From contig JAUIIU010000007.1 of the NCBI GenBank assembly GCA_030431695.1, positions 1 through 64,000 of the forward strand: a DNA stretch of 64,000 nucleotides, written 5' to 3'. The position numbers were made by a program, and so were the translations under genes. Shown one piece after another: positions 11,739 to 54,973 of this stretch (the stretch's first letter is position 1; each line of letters begins with the position of its first letter). This DNA is from Bacteroidia bacterium. GTDB taxonomy: Bacteria; Bacteroidota; Bacteroidia; Flavobacteriales; Flavobacteriaceae. The notes under the pieces are model-generated. The model did no database searches. It was not told the origin of the DNA and saw only the letters and a list, made by a program, of their open reading frames with translations.

Positions 11739-13732
11739 ACTTCTTCCAATTGTTTCTGAAGCGATTTGATCTTATCCCTCAACTTTGCTGCCATCATAAA
11801 ATCGAGTTCTTTGGCCGCTTTTTCCATCTCCTTGCGCGTATCCCTGATCTTCTTTTCGATCTGGGGTTTGGTCAGGTACAGGTTCTCAGGTTCTGCCGCA
11901 AGCGCTTCGGCAGTGTCGAAGGTGAATCGCTCGGTCTTTTTCGACGTTAATGCGTTTTCAAGTGACTTTTTAATAGCCGATGGAGTGATATTGTTCTCCT
12001 GGTTGTAGGCGATCTGCTTTTCCCTACGGTAATTGGTTCCGTCAATGGTGGCCTGCATACTCCTCGTGATCTTATCGGCGTACATAATCGCCTTGCCGTT
12101 AATATGGCGGGCAGCCCGTCCAACGGTCTGTGTCAGGGAGCGGTGACTTCGTAGAAAACCTTCCTTATCCGCATCCAGGATAGCCACCAGGGACACTTCA
12201 GGAAGATCAAGACCTTCTCTCAGCAGGTTAACCCCAACGAGTACATCAAACAGCCCCAACCGGAGATCCTGCATGATCTCCACACGTTCCAGGGTATCTA
12301 CATCGCTGTGGATGTAGCGGGATCTCACCTGGATCCTCGCGAGATACTTTGTGAGTTCTTCAGCCATTCTCTTGGTGAGGGTTGTAACGAGTACGCGTTC
12401 ATCCTTTTCAACCCTTTGCTGAATTTCTTCCAGTAGGTCATCGATCTGGTTCAAACTTGGACGAACCTCGATCGGTGGGTCCAGTAATCCTGTTGGTCGA
12501 ATTATCTGTTCAACGTAAACTCCACCTGTCTTTTCCATTTCATAGTCAGCCGGCGTCGCACTAACATAGATCACCTGGTTCTGCAGGGCTTCAAATTCTT
12601 CGAATTTCAACGGGCGGTTGTCCATCGCGGCGGGCAGTCGGAAGCCATACTCCACCAGGTTTTCCTTCCTGGACCGGTCACCGCCATACATAGCACTCAC
12701 CTGTGGGATGGATACGTGACTTTCATCCACAACCATCAGGTAATCATCCGGAAAATAGTCAAGCAGGCAGAACGGCCTTGTACCGGGTTTTCGCTGATCC
12801 AGGTAGCGCGAATAATTTTCAATTCCGCTGCAATACCCAAGTTCCCGTATCATCTCCAGGTCGAAATTGGTACGTTCCTCCAGTCGTTTTGCCTCAAGGT
12901 GCTTGCCGATATCTTTGAAATAATCGATCTGCTTCACCAGGTCATCCTGAATCTCCCGGATAGCATTCTGAAGTATGTCCGGAGATGTCACGAACATATT
13001 GGCCGGGTAGATGTTTAGTCGGTCGTATTTCTCGATCACCTCGTTGGTTTGAGGGTTGAAGGCCTCGATCTCCTCGATCTCATCTCCAAAAAAATGTATC
13101 CTGAAGGCGTCGTCGGCATAACCGGGATAGACATCAAGCGTATCGCCTTTGATCCTGAACCGGCCATTGTGGAACTCTGCTTCGGTCCTTGAATACAAGG
13201 ACTGGACTAACATATGAAGTAATTTGGTCCGGGAAATGATCTGTCCCTGCTCAAGGTGTATGACATTTTTCTGAAATTCCACCGGGTTCCCGATACCGTA
13301 CAGGCAGGAAACCGAAGCCACCACGATTACATCACGACGTCCCGACAACAGGGATGAAGTTGTGCTCAAACGGAGTTTTTCGATCTCCTCATTGATCGAC
13401 AGGTCTTTTTCAATATAAGTTCCGCTGGTTGGAATATACGCCTCGGGCTGGTAGTAGTCGTAATACGACACGAAATACTCCACGGCGTTGTTCGGGAAGA
13501 ATTGTTTGAACTCGGAGTACAGCTGTGCTGCCAGGGTCTTATTGTGTGCGAGAACCAGGGTCGGTTTCTGAACCTGTTCCACAACATTAGCCACGGTAAA
13601 GGTTTTACCACTACCCGTAACTCCTAACAAGGTTTGATATTTTTCTCCCGAATCAATAGCCTCCACCAAAGCCTCTATGGCTTCCGGCTGGTCCCCCGTG
13701 GGGCTAAAATCTGAAACGATCTCGAATTTCAT
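11735..13732 (-). CDS. uvrB: Excinuclease ABC subunit B
   Basis: LLGVTGSGKTFTVANV, VYYDYYQPEAY-type region, QTVGRAARHINGKAIMYADKIT, C-terminal UVR domain. Confidence 0.97.
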   Translation of the reverse strand: MKFEIVSDFSPTGDQPEAIEALVEAIDSGEKYQTLLGVTGSGKTFTVANVVEQVQKPTLVLAHNKTLAAQLYSEFKQFFPNNAVEYFVSYYDYYQPEAYIPTSGTYIEKDLSINEEIEKLRLSTTSSLLSGRRDVIVVASVSCLYGIGNPVEFQKNVIHLEQGQIISRTKLLHMLVQSLYSRTEAEFHNGRFRIKGDTLDVYPGYADDAFRIHFFGDEIEEIEAFNPQTNEVIEKYDRLNIYPANMFVTSPDILQNAIREIQDDLVKQIDYFKDIGKHLEAKRLEERTNFDLEMIRELGYCSGIENYSRYLDQRKPGTRPFCLLDYFPDDYLMVVDESHVSIPQVSAMYGGDRSRKENLVEYGFRLPAAMDNRPLKFEEFEALQNQVIYVSATPADYEMEKTGGVYVEQIIRPTGLLDPPIEVRPSLNQIDDLLEEIQQRVEKDERVLVTTLTKRMAEELTKYLARIQVRSRYIHSDVDTLERVEIMQDLRLGLFDVLVGVNLLREGLDLPEVSLVAILDADKEGFLRSHRSLTQTVGRAARHINGKAIMYADKITRSMQATIDGTNYRREKQIAYNQENNITPSAIKKSLENALTSKKTERFTFDTAEALAAEPENLYLTKPQIEKKIRDTRKEMEKAAKELDFMMAAKLRDKIKSLQKQLEEV

Positions 13733-22616: not shown

Positions 22617-23630
22617 TTATTTTGAGAACCTGTGAAGGGTGAATGTCATGGCCGCTAAAAGGAAAAATGCAACTACCTGGTGCAATACGCCTAACCACAC
22701 CGGAACCTGCAGCAGCAGGGTGAAAACACCAAGGGCGAACTGAACGAAAACTAGCATTACCAGCCAATTCACACCTTTTCTCTGCGAGCCAGTCAAAGGC
22801 CGTTTTCGCGCTTTGAACCATGCAGCCATAATAAGCCCAACAACCACATATGCCAGGTATCGGTGAACGAACTGTACCCCGCTTTTCCCCTCGACGAAAT
22901 TCTTCCATACAGGTGACTGTTCGATGGTCACGGTCTCGTGGATGAGCTTCCCGTCGCTCATCATAGGCCAGCTATTGTGTATCCAGCCGGCATCGAGTCC
23001 GGCAACGAATGCGCCCCAGATGATCTGCAGCAACAGTACCCCCAGGGACAGCCGGAGAAAGTTCCTGAAGGCCTTATCCACTTCTTTTTTGGTTGGGTAG
23101 ATAAGGTCCAGAGCTACCCACAAGGTGTAGGCGAATGTTATGAAAGCGGTTGTCAGGTGCATTGCAAGTCGGTAATGACTAACATCCGGGCGATCTACCA
23201 GTCCACTTTTTACCATATACCAGCCCAGGAACCCCTGGAAACCGCCCAGGAACAACAGAACTAGTGATTTTCTAATGGTTGGTCGCGAGAGTTGTTTCCG
23301 AAGAAGAAAATACAGGAAGGGGATAATGAATACAATTCCAATAAGCCTGCCGATCACCCTGTGTATCCACTCCCAGAAGTAGATGTCCTTGAATTCTTCA
23401 AGGGTCATGTTGTAGTTCAGTTTCTGGTATTCGGGGTATTGTTTGTATAGGTCGAAAGCTTCCTCCCATTCAGCGATATTCATCGGTGGCACTGTACCCG
23501 AGATCAGCTTATAATTCGAGATCGATAACCCGGAATGCGTCAGGCGTGTGATCCCGCCAACTACTACCATTACAAAGATCAGAGTACATCCTATCAGCAG
23601 CCAGGTGATTACTTTTTTGTTATCTTTCAT
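22617..23630 (-). CDS. ctaA: Heme A synthase (COX15/CtaA)
   Basis: VVVGGITRLTHSGLSISNYKLISGTVPPMN...EFKDIYFWEWIHRVIGRLIG...HRYLAYVVV. Confidence 0.95.
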   Translation of the reverse strand: MKDNKKVITWLLIGCTLIFVMVVVGGITRLTHSGLSISNYKLISGTVPPMNIAEWEEAFDLYKQYPEYQKLNYNMTLEEFKDIYFWEWIHRVIGRLIGIVFIIPFLYFLLRKQLSRPTIRKSLVLLFLGGFQGFLGWYMVKSGLVDRPDVSHYRLAMHLTTAFITFAYTLWVALDLIYPTKKEVDKAFRNFLRLSLGVLLLQIIWGAFVAGLDAGWIHNSWPMMSDGKLIHETVTIEQSPVWKNFVEGKSGVQFVHRYLAYVVVGLIMAAWFKARKRPLTGSQRKGVNWLVMLVFVQFALGVFTLLLQVPVWLGVLHQVVAFFLLAAMTFTLHRFSK

Positions 23631-23647
23631 AGTAGTATTATCGTGGG

Positions 23648-23778
23648 TTCGATTGTTGGATTTTTAGATTATTGGATTTTCGGATTTTTAGATTGATGGT
23701 ATTTAAGATTGATCAACTTAACACTTAACACTTAACACTTAACACCAAACAATGAACAATGAACAATGAACAATGAAC
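23648..23778 (+). repeat. Two-part tandem repeat locus 1: six 8-bp units then 4 + 4 7-bp units
   Basis: Octamers TTCGATTG TTGGATTT TTAGATTA TTGGATTT TCGGATTT TTAGATTG (23648-23695); (CTTAACA)x4 (23717-23744); (AATGAAC)x4 (23751-23778). Confidence 0.9.
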
Positions 23779-23785
23779 ACCAAGA

Positions 23786-25210
23786 CTAAACACCCTTCAC
23801 CTTTAATCCTATTTCTTTTCCTTTTTTCAGCATATATTCCCTCGCGGCTTCATATTCATTCGGGATCTGCCCTTCCAGTATCGCTTCCTTGATTGCATCT
23901 TTTATGATCCCGATCTCTCTCGAGGGTTTGATTCCGAAGGTCTCCATGATCTCTTCACCACTAACCGGAGGCTGAAAGTTTCGGATATGATCTCGTTCTT
24001 CAACTTCGACAATTTTTTCACGCACCCGCTGAAAATTCTGGTGGTATCGCTTGAATCGCTTTGGGTTCTTCGTTGTGATATCAGCTTCACACAAGGTCAT
24101 CAGGTCGTCGACATAATCACCCGCGTCGAATACCAGTCGCCTTATGGCACTGTCGGTTACTTCGGAAGCGAGTACTATTGGCCTGGAACTCATCAGTACC
24201 ATCTTCTGAACGAATTTCATATGCTCGTTCAACGGCATTTTCAATCGTTTGAAGAGTTTATAGACCATTTTTGAACCGACGAACTCATGACCGTGGAATG
24301 TCCATCCCAGATTTTGATCGAAGCGCTTGGTGGGTGCTTTTCCAATGTCGTGCAGCAAGGCAGCCCAGCGTAACCATAGGTTGTCTGTGGTTTTCGAAAT
24401 ATTGTCCACCACCTCCAGGGTGTGCCAGAAATTATCCTTATGACGCTGTCCCTCAACTTCCTCAATACCTTCCAAAGCTACCAGTTCGGGCAGGATGTAC
24501 TTCAGTAAACCCGTTTTGCGCAACAATGAGAAACCCTTCGACGGCTTCGGGGCCAATAGAATCTTGTTGAGCTCATCGACGATGCGTTCTTTGGAAATGA
24601 TCTCGATCCTGGTGGCATTGCGGGAGATCGCCTCCAGGGACTCCTTCTCAATACGGAAATCCAGCTGGGTGGCGAATCGGATTGCTCTTAGCATCCGAAG
24701 CGGGTCATCGCTGTAGGTCACATCCGGATCCAGGGGTGTTCGGATAAGCTTGTCATCCAGGTCCTTCAATCCATTGAAAGGGTCGAGCAATTTTCCAAAA
24801 TCGTCTTCTCCTAAACTCAGGGCCAGGGCGTTGATGGTAAAATCCCGCCGATTCTGGTCGTCTTCCAGCGTTCCGTGGGAAACTGCCGGATTTCGACTGT
24901 CCTCACTGTAACTTTCCTTGCGTGCGCCAACGAATTCGAGTTCGATCCCGGAAGTTTTCAGCATGGCTGTACCGTAGGTCTTGAAGATCGAAACTTTGGG
25001 CTTACCCGGGAGTAAGTTCGAAACTGCATTAGCAAGGTCGATCCCGCTGCCCACAGCAACAATGTCTATGTCCTTGGCATCACCCCGACCGAGTATATGG
25101 TCGCGCACAAATCCACCGATCACATAGGATTCAAGCCCTAGACTGGCGGCCGCCTTGGAGATGACCCTGAAAACAGGATCTTTTAACGCGTTTGGATACG
25201 ATCCGGACAT
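23786..25210 (-). CDS. cca: CCA tRNA nucleotidyltransferase / poly(A) polymerase family with HD domain
   Basis: YVIGGFVRDHILGRGDAKDIDIVAVG; RRDFTINALA; RMLRAIRFATQL; HD motif LLHDIGKAPTKR. Confidence 0.93.
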   Translation of the reverse strand: MSGSYPNALKDPVFRVISKAAASLGLESYVIGGFVRDHILGRGDAKDIDIVAVGSGIDLANAVSNLLPGKPKVSIFKTYGTAMLKTSGIELEFVGARKESYSEDSRNPAVSHGTLEDDQNRRDFTINALALSLGEDDFGKLLDPFNGLKDLDDKLIRTPLDPDVTYSDDPLRMLRAIRFATQLDFRIEKESLEAISRNATRIEIISKERIVDELNKILLAPKPSKGFSLLRKTGLLKYILPELVALEGIEEVEGQRHKDNFWHTLEVVDNISKTTDNLWLRWAALLHDIGKAPTKRFDQNLGWTFHGHEFVGSKMVYKLFKRLKMPLNEHMKFVQKMVLMSSRPIVLASEVTDSAIRRLVFDAGDYVDDLMTLCEADITTKNPKRFKRYHQNFQRVREKIVEVEERDHIRNFQPPVSGEEIMETFGIKPSREIGIIKDAIKEAILEGQIPNEYEAAREYMLKKGKEIGLKVKGV

Positions 25211-34734: not shown

Positions 34735-35148
34735 ATGGGTCGTATACTGGCATTAGACTACGGAACCAGGCGCACGGGGATAGCGGTGACGGACGAACTT
34801 CAGATCATCGCCTCCGGACTCACCACGGTTTCAACAGACGAGCTTCTGTCTTATCTCGCAAATTATTTTTCCGAAGAGACCGTAGAACTGCTGCTTGTTG
34901 GCGAACCAAAGCAGAAAGACGGTACGCACAGTGCCGTGGAAGAAGAAATACAAAAATTCCTGGAGGAGTTCGGCAAGCAATTTCCCGATATGGAGGTGAA
35001 GCGTGTGGATGAGCGGTTCAGCAGTAAGATGGCGTTTCAGACGATGATAGACGGCGGACTCAAAAAGAAGAAGCGAAAGGACAAAGGATTGATTGACGAG
35101 ATCAGTGCGACTATCTTGCTTCGGGATTTTTTGAATTATAGAACATAG
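34735..35148 (+). CDS. ruvX: Putative Holliday junction resolvase / pre-16S rRNA nuclease (YqgF/RuvX)
   Basis: MGRILALDYGTRRTGIAVTDELQIIASGL...VKRVDERFSSKMA. Confidence 0.93.
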   Translation: MGRILALDYGTRRTGIAVTDELQIIASGLTTVSTDELLSYLANYFSEETVELLLVGEPKQKDGTHSAVEEEIQKFLEEFGKQFPDMEVKRVDERFSSKMAFQTMIDGGLKKKKRKDKGLIDEISATILLRDFLNYRT

Positions 35149-35152
35149 ATTT

Positions 35153-35281
35153 TTAGATGGTTAGATATTTGGATTGTTGGATTTTTGGATTTTTAGATTG
35201 TTGGATTTTTGGATTGGTGGAATATGAGGGAGGTAGGTTCAGCTGATTTTTACCACAACCCACAACCCACAACCGACAACC
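35153..35281 (+). repeat. Two-part tandem repeat locus 2: eight 8-bp units then four 7-bp units
   Basis: TTAGATGG TTAGATAT TTGGATTG TTGGATTT TTGGATTT TTAGATTG TTGGATTT TTGGATTG (35153-35216); CACAACC x3 + GACAACC (35254-35281). Confidence 0.9.
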
Positions 35282-35318
35282 TACATCTAACCACAAACCC
35301 TTAACGATAGTAACTTAA

Positions 35319-35909
35319 ATGATATTACCAATTGTTGCATATGGAGATCCGGTACTTCGCCAAAAAGCAAATGAAATAGGAAAGGATTATCCGAAATTCG
35401 ATGAATTGCTCGAGAATATGTTCGAGACCATGTATGGTGCCAGGGGAATTGGCCTTGCGGCTCCGCAGGTTGGCTTGCCGATTCGTCTTTTTATAGTAGA
35501 TGCAACACCTTTCGAGGATGATGATGATCTTTCTGAAGAGGAACGTGAATTCTGTTCCACCTTCAGGCAGGTATTCATCAATGCGAAGATAATTGAAGAA
35601 GAAGGTGATGAGTGGGCATTTAACGAAGGCTGCCTGAGTATCCCAGATATCAACGAAGATGTGTTTCGCCAGCCGCAGATCACCCTGGAATACCTAGATG
35701 AGAACTTCGAGAAACATACAAAGACTTTCGACGGGATCGTTGCCAGGATCATTCAGCATGAATACGATCACATCGAAGGAATCCTCTTTACCGATAAACT
35801 ATCTCCCCTGAAAAAACGTTTGATCAAAGGAAAGCTTGCAAATATCTCGAAAGGCAAGATCGACGTTTCCTATCGCATGCGATTTCCCAATGCAAAAAAG
35901 AAACGTTAA
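35319..35909 (+). CDS. def: Peptide deformylase
   Basis: GIGLAAPQVGLPIRLFIVD; EGCLSIP; QHEYDHIEGILF. Confidence 0.97.
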   Translation: MILPIVAYGDPVLRQKANEIGKDYPKFDELLENMFETMYGARGIGLAAPQVGLPIRLFIVDATPFEDDDDLSEEEREFCSTFRQVFINAKIIEEEGDEWAFNEGCLSIPDINEDVFRQPQITLEYLDENFEKHTKTFDGIVARIIQHEYDHIEGILFTDKLSPLKKRLIKGKLANISKGKIDVSYRMRFPNAKKKR

Positions 35910-52792: not shown

Positions 52793-54028
52793 TTAACGGC
52801 CTTTGAGGTTCCTGAAACGCTGCAACAGAGTTGGATGCGAATAATGCGCGAAAACGTAGGCAGGATGTGGTGTGAGGTTGCTCAGGCTATTCTTCGACAA
52901 TTTCTTCAAAGCCGAAATCAAAGGTTCACCTGAGTATGTCTTTTTGGCATAATTATCCGCCTGGTACTCGAATTTTCGTGACAGGAAGTTCATGAGTAAG
53001 CCTGTGAGCTCCGAAATTGGAGTGAAAAGTATTCCGAAGGCGATCAGCCCGATATGAAAGGAAGCTTGTGTCACACCCAATGCTTCGGAAAGTTCTGGGT
53101 TACCTACAAGAAGTGATAGTATCCACAATGTAAAACCGGTGGTTATTACTGAAGCAATCAAGTTGATCACAATATGTTTCTTTTTATAATGACCTACCTC
53201 ATGAGCCAGTACGGCCACGATCTCCTCATCATCCAGGTCGTTGATCAGGGTGTCGTAAAGTGTTACCCGTTTTTCACTTCCGAAGCCCGAAAAATAGGCA
53301 TTGGCCTTGGTACTGCGCTTAGAGCCGTCGATCACAAAGATCTTTTCCAGTGTGAAACCAACTTTCCCGGCATAGGTTTCGATCTTGGATCGCAATTCAC
53401 CTGTTTCCAGTGGGGTCTGTTTGTTGAACAAAGGAACTATGAGACGGGCATAGAACATATTCAGCAGGATTGAGAAAACAGTGATCACAGCCCATGCGTA
53501 CAGCCAGAAGTTCGATCCGGCGAATTCGTAGAACCAAATGATAAGTGCAAGCAACGGACCTCCAATGAGAGCCGTCATAAGCATTCCCTTTACTTTGTCC
53601 ATCACAAATGTTCCCATTGTGGTTTTATTGAAGCCGTATTTTTCTTCAATCACAAAGGTGCTGTAGTAGGAGAACGGCAGACTCAGGATACTGGCTGCTG
53701 CGGCAATGATTCCGAAGAAAACCAGGGCGATCACTATGCTGTTTTCTGAAATACTTCGGGCCAGGGCATCGACATATGCAAATCCATCCAGGAAAAAGAA
53801 CAGCAGTGTGGCCACAAGGGAGAGCGTAGAGGTGAAAATGCCGAATTTGAACCGTTCCTTTTTATACGACTGGGATTTTCGGTAGGCTTCCTGGTCGTAA
53901 ACATCGGCAATCTCCGAAGGTAACGGATCATCGAAATGCCGCGCATTGAGGAAATCGAGAACCTTGTCTATCAGGAAATTGATAACAATTATACCTATCA
54001 GTATGTAAAAGAGTAAACGAGGTTCCAA
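52793..54028 (-). CDS. M48 family (Ste24/CAAX-type) metallopeptidase
   Basis: VAVLAHEVGHYKKKHIVINL; SLPFSYYSTFVIEEKYGFNKTT; ADNYA. Confidence 0.93.
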   Translation of the reverse strand: MEPRLLFYILIGIIVINFLIDKVLDFLNARHFDDPLPSEIADVYDQEAYRKSQSYKKERFKFGIFTSTLSLVATLLFFFLDGFAYVDALARSISENSIVIALVFFGIIAAAASILSLPFSYYSTFVIEEKYGFNKTTMGTFVMDKVKGMLMTALIGGPLLALIIWFYEFAGSNFWLYAWAVITVFSILLNMFYARLIVPLFNKQTPLETGELRSKIETYAGKVGFTLEKIFVIDGSKRSTKANAYFSGFGSEKRVTLYDTLINDLDDEEIVAVLAHEVGHYKKKHIVINLIASVITTGFTLWILSLLVGNPELSEALGVTQASFHIGLIAFGILFTPISELTGLLMNFLSRKFEYQADNYAKKTYSGEPLISALKKLSKNSLSNLTPHPAYVFAHYSHPTLLQRFRNLKGR

Positions 54029-54044
54029 TTAGTACGTTGGTATT

Positions 54045-54183
54045 TTAGATTGTTAGATTACTAGATTACTAGATTATTAGAAAGTTAGTATGTTAGATTG
54101 CTTATTTTTTTCTGAACACTGAACACTGAACACTGAACACTGAACACCGAACACCGAACGCTGAACACCGAACACTGAACACC
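54045..54183 (+). repeat. Two-part tandem repeat locus 3: seven 8-bp units then ten 7-bp units
   Basis: TTAGATTG TTAGATTA CTAGATTA CTAGATTA TTAGAAAG TTAGTATG TTAGATTG (54045-54100); ten GAACACT-type units (54114-54183). Confidence 0.92.
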
Positions 54184-54187
54184 GAAC

Positions 54188-54973
54188 CTACCCAAACCCC
54201 CTCTGTCTTTTGGCCTCAAAGATAAGGATTCCTGCCGCTACCGAAACATTCATGCTGTCGATCTCTCCCTGCATCGGAATTATGATGTTTTGGTCACTGT
54301 TTTCGAGCCATTCCGCTGAAAGTCCGTCGGCTTCTGTCCCGACCACAATAGCCGAACCCCCGGTATAATCACAACCGTGATATGGCTTCGATGCCTGAAG
54401 GGCTGCACAGAAAATACTGATGTTCTTTGTTTTCAGGAAGGAGATGATCTCATCAGTGCTTCCCGTGGCAATTCGATTGGTGAAGACACAGCCCACACTA
54501 CTGCGAATGATATTCGGATTGTAGAGGTCGGTCCTTGGGCTCGCGATGATCACTGCATCCAGGTTGGCAGCATCCGCCGTTCTCAATAATGCGCCGATAT
54601 TCCCCGGTTTTTCAGGCGCTTCAGCAACAAGGACAAGAGGGTTTTCTCCTAGACCAAGAGCCTCTAACTCGAGATCTTTAGCTTCAACGATCGCTAAAAT
54701 TCCTTCGGTCGTTTTGCGGTAGGCGAGTTTCTGGTATACTTCCGAGCTTATCCGTATAACTTCCGCAAAAAATTCTTCCGAAGAAATCTCTCCATAAATT
54801 TCCGGGCAAATTAACACGGTATTGATCGAATAACCTCCTTTTCGGGCCAGATCGATCTCGCGCTTTCCCTCTGCAACAAAAAGTCCGGACTTCCTGCGTT
54901 CCCGTGATTTCTCAAGCAGTTGAACGACCTGTTTAACCAGGGGGTTCTGAAGGCTACTAATCGTTTTGATCAT
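54188..54973 (-). CDS. TrmH/SpoU family RNA 2'-O-methyltransferase
   Basis: LVLVAEAPEKPGNIGALLRTADAANLDAVIIASP...IVVGTEADGLS...IPMQGEIDSMNVSVAAGILIFEA. Confidence 0.93.
   Translation of the reverse strand: MIKTISSLQNPLVKQVVQLLEKSRERRKSGLFVAEGKREIDLARKGGYSINTVLICPEIYGEISSEEFFAEVIRISSEVYQKLAYRKTTEGILAIVEAKDLELEALGLGENPLVLVAEAPEKPGNIGALLRTADAANLDAVIIASPRTDLYNPNIIRSSVGCVFTNRIATGSTDEIISFLKTKNISIFCAALQASKPYHGCDYTGGSAIVVGTEADGLSAEWLENSDQNIIIPMQGEIDSMNVSVAAGILIFEAKRQRGFG

Follow-up and report, generated by a model that had tools for sequence, protein, structure and literature searches.

This study provides evidence that the two-part repeat between ruvX and def, in the 64,000-nucleotide stretch of DNA analysed here (the window), is a real and non-random arrangement of short tandem-repeat arrays. 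We consider, with moderate confidence, that it belongs to a class of 7- and 8-bp arrays at gene edges, representing in Bacteroidota a variant of the heptamer repeats known from Xanthomonas and Nostoc, in which units would turn over by slippage and orientation would be set by the position at the gene edge.

Direct reading and Tandem Repeats Finder both placed the ruvX-def element where the preliminary description had put it. A T/G-rich octamer array of about nine TTRGATTN units occupies 35146..35221 on the + strand, and its first unit overlaps the TAG stop codon (35146-35148) of ruvX, the gene for the Holliday junction resolvase RuvX (34735..35148, +). A non-repetitive middle segment to which no strand is assigned (35222..35252, by direct reading) separates it from an A/C-rich heptamer array (CACAACC three times, then GACAACC; 35253..35285, +) lying upstream of def, the peptide deformylase gene (35319..35909, +). 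When only in-phase units are read, eight octamers at 35153-35216 are followed by a 37-bp gap and by the four heptamers at 35254-35281.

The same layout recurs, as had been described, at two further loci in the window, and both methods recovered these arrays as well. In the 23-kb locus, the T/G-rich octamer array (23647..23694, +) lies beside the start of a heme A synthase-like gene (22617-23630, -), and the A/C-rich heptamer array (23716..23779, +) ends 6 bp from the TAG stop (23786-23788) of a CCA tRNA nucleotidyltransferase gene. Since this heptamer block consists of two words, ACTTAAC and then AACAATG, a locus can contain more than one heptamer word, contrary to what had been proposed. In the 54-kb locus, the T/G-rich octamer array (54045..54096, +) adjoins an HtpX-like metalloprotease gene (52793-54028, -) at its start, and the A/C-rich heptamer array of CTGAACA/CCGAACA units (54112..54187, +) directly adjoins the TAG stop (54188-54190) of a TrmH/RlmB-type RNA methyltransferase gene (54188-54973, -). 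The genes adjoining the window arrays are unrelated housekeeping genes.

The unit length is narrowly restricted. A strict scan of 0.80 Mb of this genome identified 15 period-7 and 21 period-8 intergenic arrays, plus multiples of these periods, which answers in the negative the earlier question of whether only the three window loci exist. No intergenic array of period 4, 5, 6 or 9-12 was found in the same 0.80 Mb, and Markov-shuffled sequence yielded zero arrays at any period under the same strict threshold. In two sister genomes (1.9 Mb), the intergenic tandem arrays were nearly all of period 7, 8 or their multiples, and G005, the closest congener compared, showed the same restriction as this genome. 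Among 80 public loci, with the searched octamer set aside, the intergenic arrays were again most numerous at periods 7 and 8, with counts of 32 and 20 against 12 at period 9 and three at each of periods 10-12. The scan covered 27% of this genome and approximately one third of G005. Because an octamer search guided part of the sampling of this genome, array densities are inflated and should be read as upper estimates. The orientation statistics are unaffected by this selection; contigs sampled without octamer choice contained 8 arrays in 334 kb.

The order of the two parts is also non-random. In spacers with several arrays, the T/G-rich array came first and the A/C-rich array last in 15 cases, and the reverse order was found in one. 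Likewise, an A/C array lay within 110 bp on the 3' side of 15 of the 38 T/G-oriented octamer arrays, and on the 5' side of two of the 38. The suggestion of a defined element class is thus borne out as regards a recurrent, ordered two-part layout, and the arrays that share a spacer are not randomly oriented to each other. However, 7-7 pairs, 8-8 pairs and single arrays are also present; therefore, the octamer-plus-heptamer combination is a frequent composite and not an obligatory one.

With respect to genes, 52 arrays were located no more than 60 bp from one, and their T/G strand was directed away from the gene in 45 and toward it in 7 (p=7e-8); the bias was present both at stop ends (27:2) and at start ends (18:5). 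General base composition at gene ends was rejected as the cause, since array-free spacers have approximately 50% T+G beside genes. Arrays were present in 11 of the 87 gaps between convergent genes, in 29 of the 445 between co-directional genes and in 3 of the 190 between divergent genes, and convergent and divergent gaps differed significantly (p=3e-4). Some T/G-then-A/C modules lie within long spacers, at a distance of more than 100 bp from the nearest gene, and modules such as GTTGATTC octamers followed by GACTTCC-type heptamers recur in such settings. On contig C118 (3801-4042, L036), an octamer-plus-heptamer module approximately 135 bp long shows a partial tandem duplication.

The preliminary description had taken the shared order in the window to mean that polarity follows the chromosome, for example the replichore. 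This was rejected: the T/G octamer strand varies by locus, coincides with the G-rich strand in only 15/41 cases and shows no link to GC skew or to the majority gene strand. An element with its T/G block first and its A/C block second reads identically on either strand, and therefore the order shared by the window loci requires no chromosomal direction.

TAG stops were found in 19 of the 26 array-touching genes, compared with 25% of genes (p=4e-7), and in the G005 ruvX gene the final codons are themselves array units. The arrays appear to extend into gene ends until coding stops them. The TAG excess includes genes whose adjacent array word has no TAG.

Comparison with G005 revealed that the same spacers keep arrays while the words change, and thus that positions are more stable than words. 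The ruvX-def spacer of G005 contains seven to eight GTTAGAA units followed by CACCCAA/CACTGAA heptamers, and its 23-kb spacer contains mostly TTRGTATN octamers followed by five CCCACAA units, so that at both spacers the first array is partly and the second wholly rewritten relative to the window. In the 54-kb spacer of G005, a GTGAGCA/GTTAGCA heptamer array was found at the contig end, so that only this part of the spacer is visible. Further orthologous spacers agree, including one convergent spacer in which TTRGTATN has taken the place of TTRGATTN in concert. At the spacers that carry arrays in the two species, the genes have kept their order. In five other congeners (G001-G004 and G006), the window spacers are array-free and mostly shorter. 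G006 has few arrays, mostly at 2.51-2.53 Mb, where a 16-kb stretch (2.513-2.530 Mb) carries heptamer words of the TTATTTG and TTGTGAT type, mostly unseen in G000 or G005. Interspersed repeats of the GTCATTCAGAGCGAAGCGAAGAATCT type share spacers with arrays in both sister genomes (contig C28 near 12440-12600, L031, and G005 stretches), and a narrow form of this pattern was absent from the G006 sample.

Beyond the genus, octamer arrays are patchy across Bacteroidota. The exact triple octamer was found in at least 120 stretches of a species-genome collection, the 80 matches listed being mostly from Flavobacteriaceae, Fluviicola and Bacteroidales, and in 18 of 398 genomes of an even sample of the phylum. 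At the 80 fetched loci, nearly all from Bacteroidota, the T/G octamer strand again pointed away from the nearest gene, i.e., the gene abutted on the 5' side, in a ratio of 50:11. A few words, namely TTRGATTN, TTRGTATN and GTTKATTY, are shared by loci with no relation to one another and turn up also in distant members of Bacteroidota. In several Bacteroidota (L248, L267, L271, L274 and L279), and on contigs C23 and C61 of this genome (L040 and L041), hairpin-like short inserts resembling CGCTTCGCTC or GCGAAGCG break up the octamer arrays.

According to the reading that we favour, each array would adjoin a gene boundary and have its T/G-rich strand directed outward, whatever the gene direction, and arrays at both edges of a spacer would produce the two-part T/G-then-A/C element. 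Because each gene edge would evolve separately, arrays of differing period can meet in one spacer. Local duplication by replication slippage would multiply and replace the units. At lag 1 and also at lag 2, units resembled each other more than shuffled units did, which is expected under local duplication; the lag-1 similarity is partly built into the detection. The few words that recur at unrelated loci suggest that, in addition to slippage, arrays are probably copied between loci with common words; if units are duplicated and replaced locally and copied in this way, positions would outlast sequences. In each transcript, the arrangement would place G/U-rich sequence downstream of the stop codon and weakly structured A/C-rich sequence ahead of the following start codon, and tolerance or a mild benefit of this arrangement may fix the orientation. 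Slippage alone does not readily account for the absence of 9-12-bp units from the strict scan or for the few words shared by unrelated loci and by distant Bacteroidota, and the modules more than 100 bp from genes count against gene-edge selection, which should be weak there.

Those interior modules, together with the fixed unit lengths, are predicted by a different origin, in which a spacer suffers a double-strand break, each of the two 3' ends receives T/G-rich repeats copied from a 7- or 8-nt template, in the manner of telomerase, and the ends are then joined. The product would be a T/G array, a junction and an A/C array with independent words and periods, which would also explain an invariant order of T/G before A/C, arms whose words are unrelated and a non-repetitive middle. 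A bacterial enzyme that makes short tandem-repeat DNA from a non-coding RNA template is in fact known, namely DRT10, with a 9-nt unit (PMC12632851). Nevertheless, the RVT_1 profile had no match in any of seven genomes of the genus, and a reverse-transcriptase generator within the genus was rejected on this result, which a very divergent reverse transcriptase could escape. Moreover, adjacent units are more alike than distant ones, unlike the product of repeated copying of one template, and the same spacers carry arrays in two species with gene order intact. Scars of break healing are therefore quite unlikely, and their specific form, a putative template-copying polymerase adding 7- or 8-nt T/G repeats to both 3' ends before joining, is still less probable; if true, the healed breaks would represent a telomere-like treatment of ends in bacteria with circular chromosomes.

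The facing arrangement also raises the question of whether the two arrays, T/G and A/C, pair with each other in an RNA or DNA hairpin, as a terminator-like or processing stem acting in both directions. In favour of such stems, 15 of 71 public octamer loci had a pair of reverse-complement octamers at most 160 bp downstream and none had one upstream, the duplex z score was below -3 in 14 downstream versus 0 upstream, and arrays are enriched between convergent genes. On the + strand, however, the three window elements folded no better than shuffles (z 0.07, 0.70 and 1.40; one - strand gave -2.69), so that a hairpin was rejected for them and they do not show the imperfect-palindrome hairpin of REP/BIME elements; Rfam models gave no match in the window and thus no known structured RNA family. 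Octamer arms and heptamer arms lack in-register complementarity. At loci where both arms are octamers, these paired only slightly better with each other than with arms of other loci (-22.8 versus -21.8 kcal/mol), which led us to reject the coevolution of the arms as partners. A hairpin is thus an unlikely general explanation. Quadruplex formation, proposed for the GGGNATC arrays, would fit placement rules equal to those of that class. Among the 52 gene-adjacent arrays, however, four GGG tracts occur in 2 and four GG tracts in 14 more; the remaining 36 have fewer than four GG tracts and are still directed outward (30:6, p=7e-5), and the sampled DNA contains zero GGGNATC or GGGGAYT tandems. As most array words cannot form G-quadruplexes, these cannot be the general cause, and we regard this reading as highly improbable. 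It is also very doubtful that the arrays bind a protein with a 7-8-nt single-stranded footprint (of the cold-shock, S1 or RRM type) that regulates the neighbouring genes. The fixed unit length and the base pattern of 114 octamer units (an invariant G at position 4, A/G at position 3 and any base at position 8) would suit such a protein, and proteins of this kind were put forward for the TAACTGA repeats (MacGregor 2015, PMC4679880), but at a given place the sister species carry different words, and the genes beside the window arrays are housekeeping genes unrelated to one another.

Several findings in the literature link the arrays with known repeats, and the statement that no named element has this structure holds only in part. 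The GGGNATC/GGGGA(C/T)T heptamers of Xanthomonas and Nostoc are intergenic and lie nearer to the ORF on their 5' side, irrespective of the direction of that ORF, with the G-rich strand in sense near stops and antisense near starts (Rehm et al. 2015, PMC4692102). They overlap stop codons, are rare between divergent ORFs, show no ori/ter preference, form facing inverted pairs (70 in Xcc) and are kept in the same spacers of related species with variable sequence (PMC4692102). The present arrays resemble them in the outward strand (45:7 here, 50:11 at public octamer loci), in their scarcity between divergent genes (3/190 versus 11/87 between convergent genes) and in their facing pairs (15 TG..AC versus 1 AC..TG). 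They differ in having units of 7 or 8 bp and many words, mostly without G tracts, in pairs that often differ in period and word, and in words that are replaced between sister species; tandem copies of GGGNATC or GGGGAYT were absent from 2.3 Mb of three genomes.

Cyanobacterial STRR heptanucleotides are degenerate heptamers with a fixed core. TAACTGA heptamer repeats are intergenic and patchy in Beggiatoaceae, Cyanobacteria and some Bacteroidetes, and other heptamer arrays were described in Gramella, Aequorivita and Elizabethkingia, with close relatives having shorter, repeat-free spacers (MacGregor 2015, PMC4679880). The present arrays are likewise intergenic and patchy, with array-free close relatives, but the portions consulted of that work give no octamers and no paired architecture, and TAACTGA tandem copies were absent from the sampled 2.3 Mb of three genomes. 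In the P6b stem of the Nostoc trnL intron, a structured setting, one of the repeat classes TDNGATT and NNTGAGT was repeatedly replaced by another (PMC4476775). TDNGATT resembles the TTRGATTN of our octamers, whereas no structure was found in the window elements and TDNGATT arrays are absent from the sampled DNA of the genus. DRT10 shares the making of bacterial short tandem-repeat DNA; it differs in that its best-studied system has a 9-nt unit and serves defence, and the present genus gave no reverse-transcriptase match. A literature search by repeat letters gave unrelated matches only.

Based on their 7- and 8-bp units, many mostly non-quadruplex words and pairing across periods, in Bacteroidota, the present arrays are distinct from the published heptamer arrays despite sharing the geometry of the GGGNATC class. 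The gene-edge orientation rule of G-quadruplex heptamers thus extends to T/G-rich 7- and 8-mers mostly unable to form quadruplexes, which points to a general, quadruplex-independent cause of gene-edge arrays in distant phyla. Sister genomes that carry other words in the same spacers, together with array-free congeners, offer a way to test in cultured relatives how such arrays arise, turn over and become oriented.
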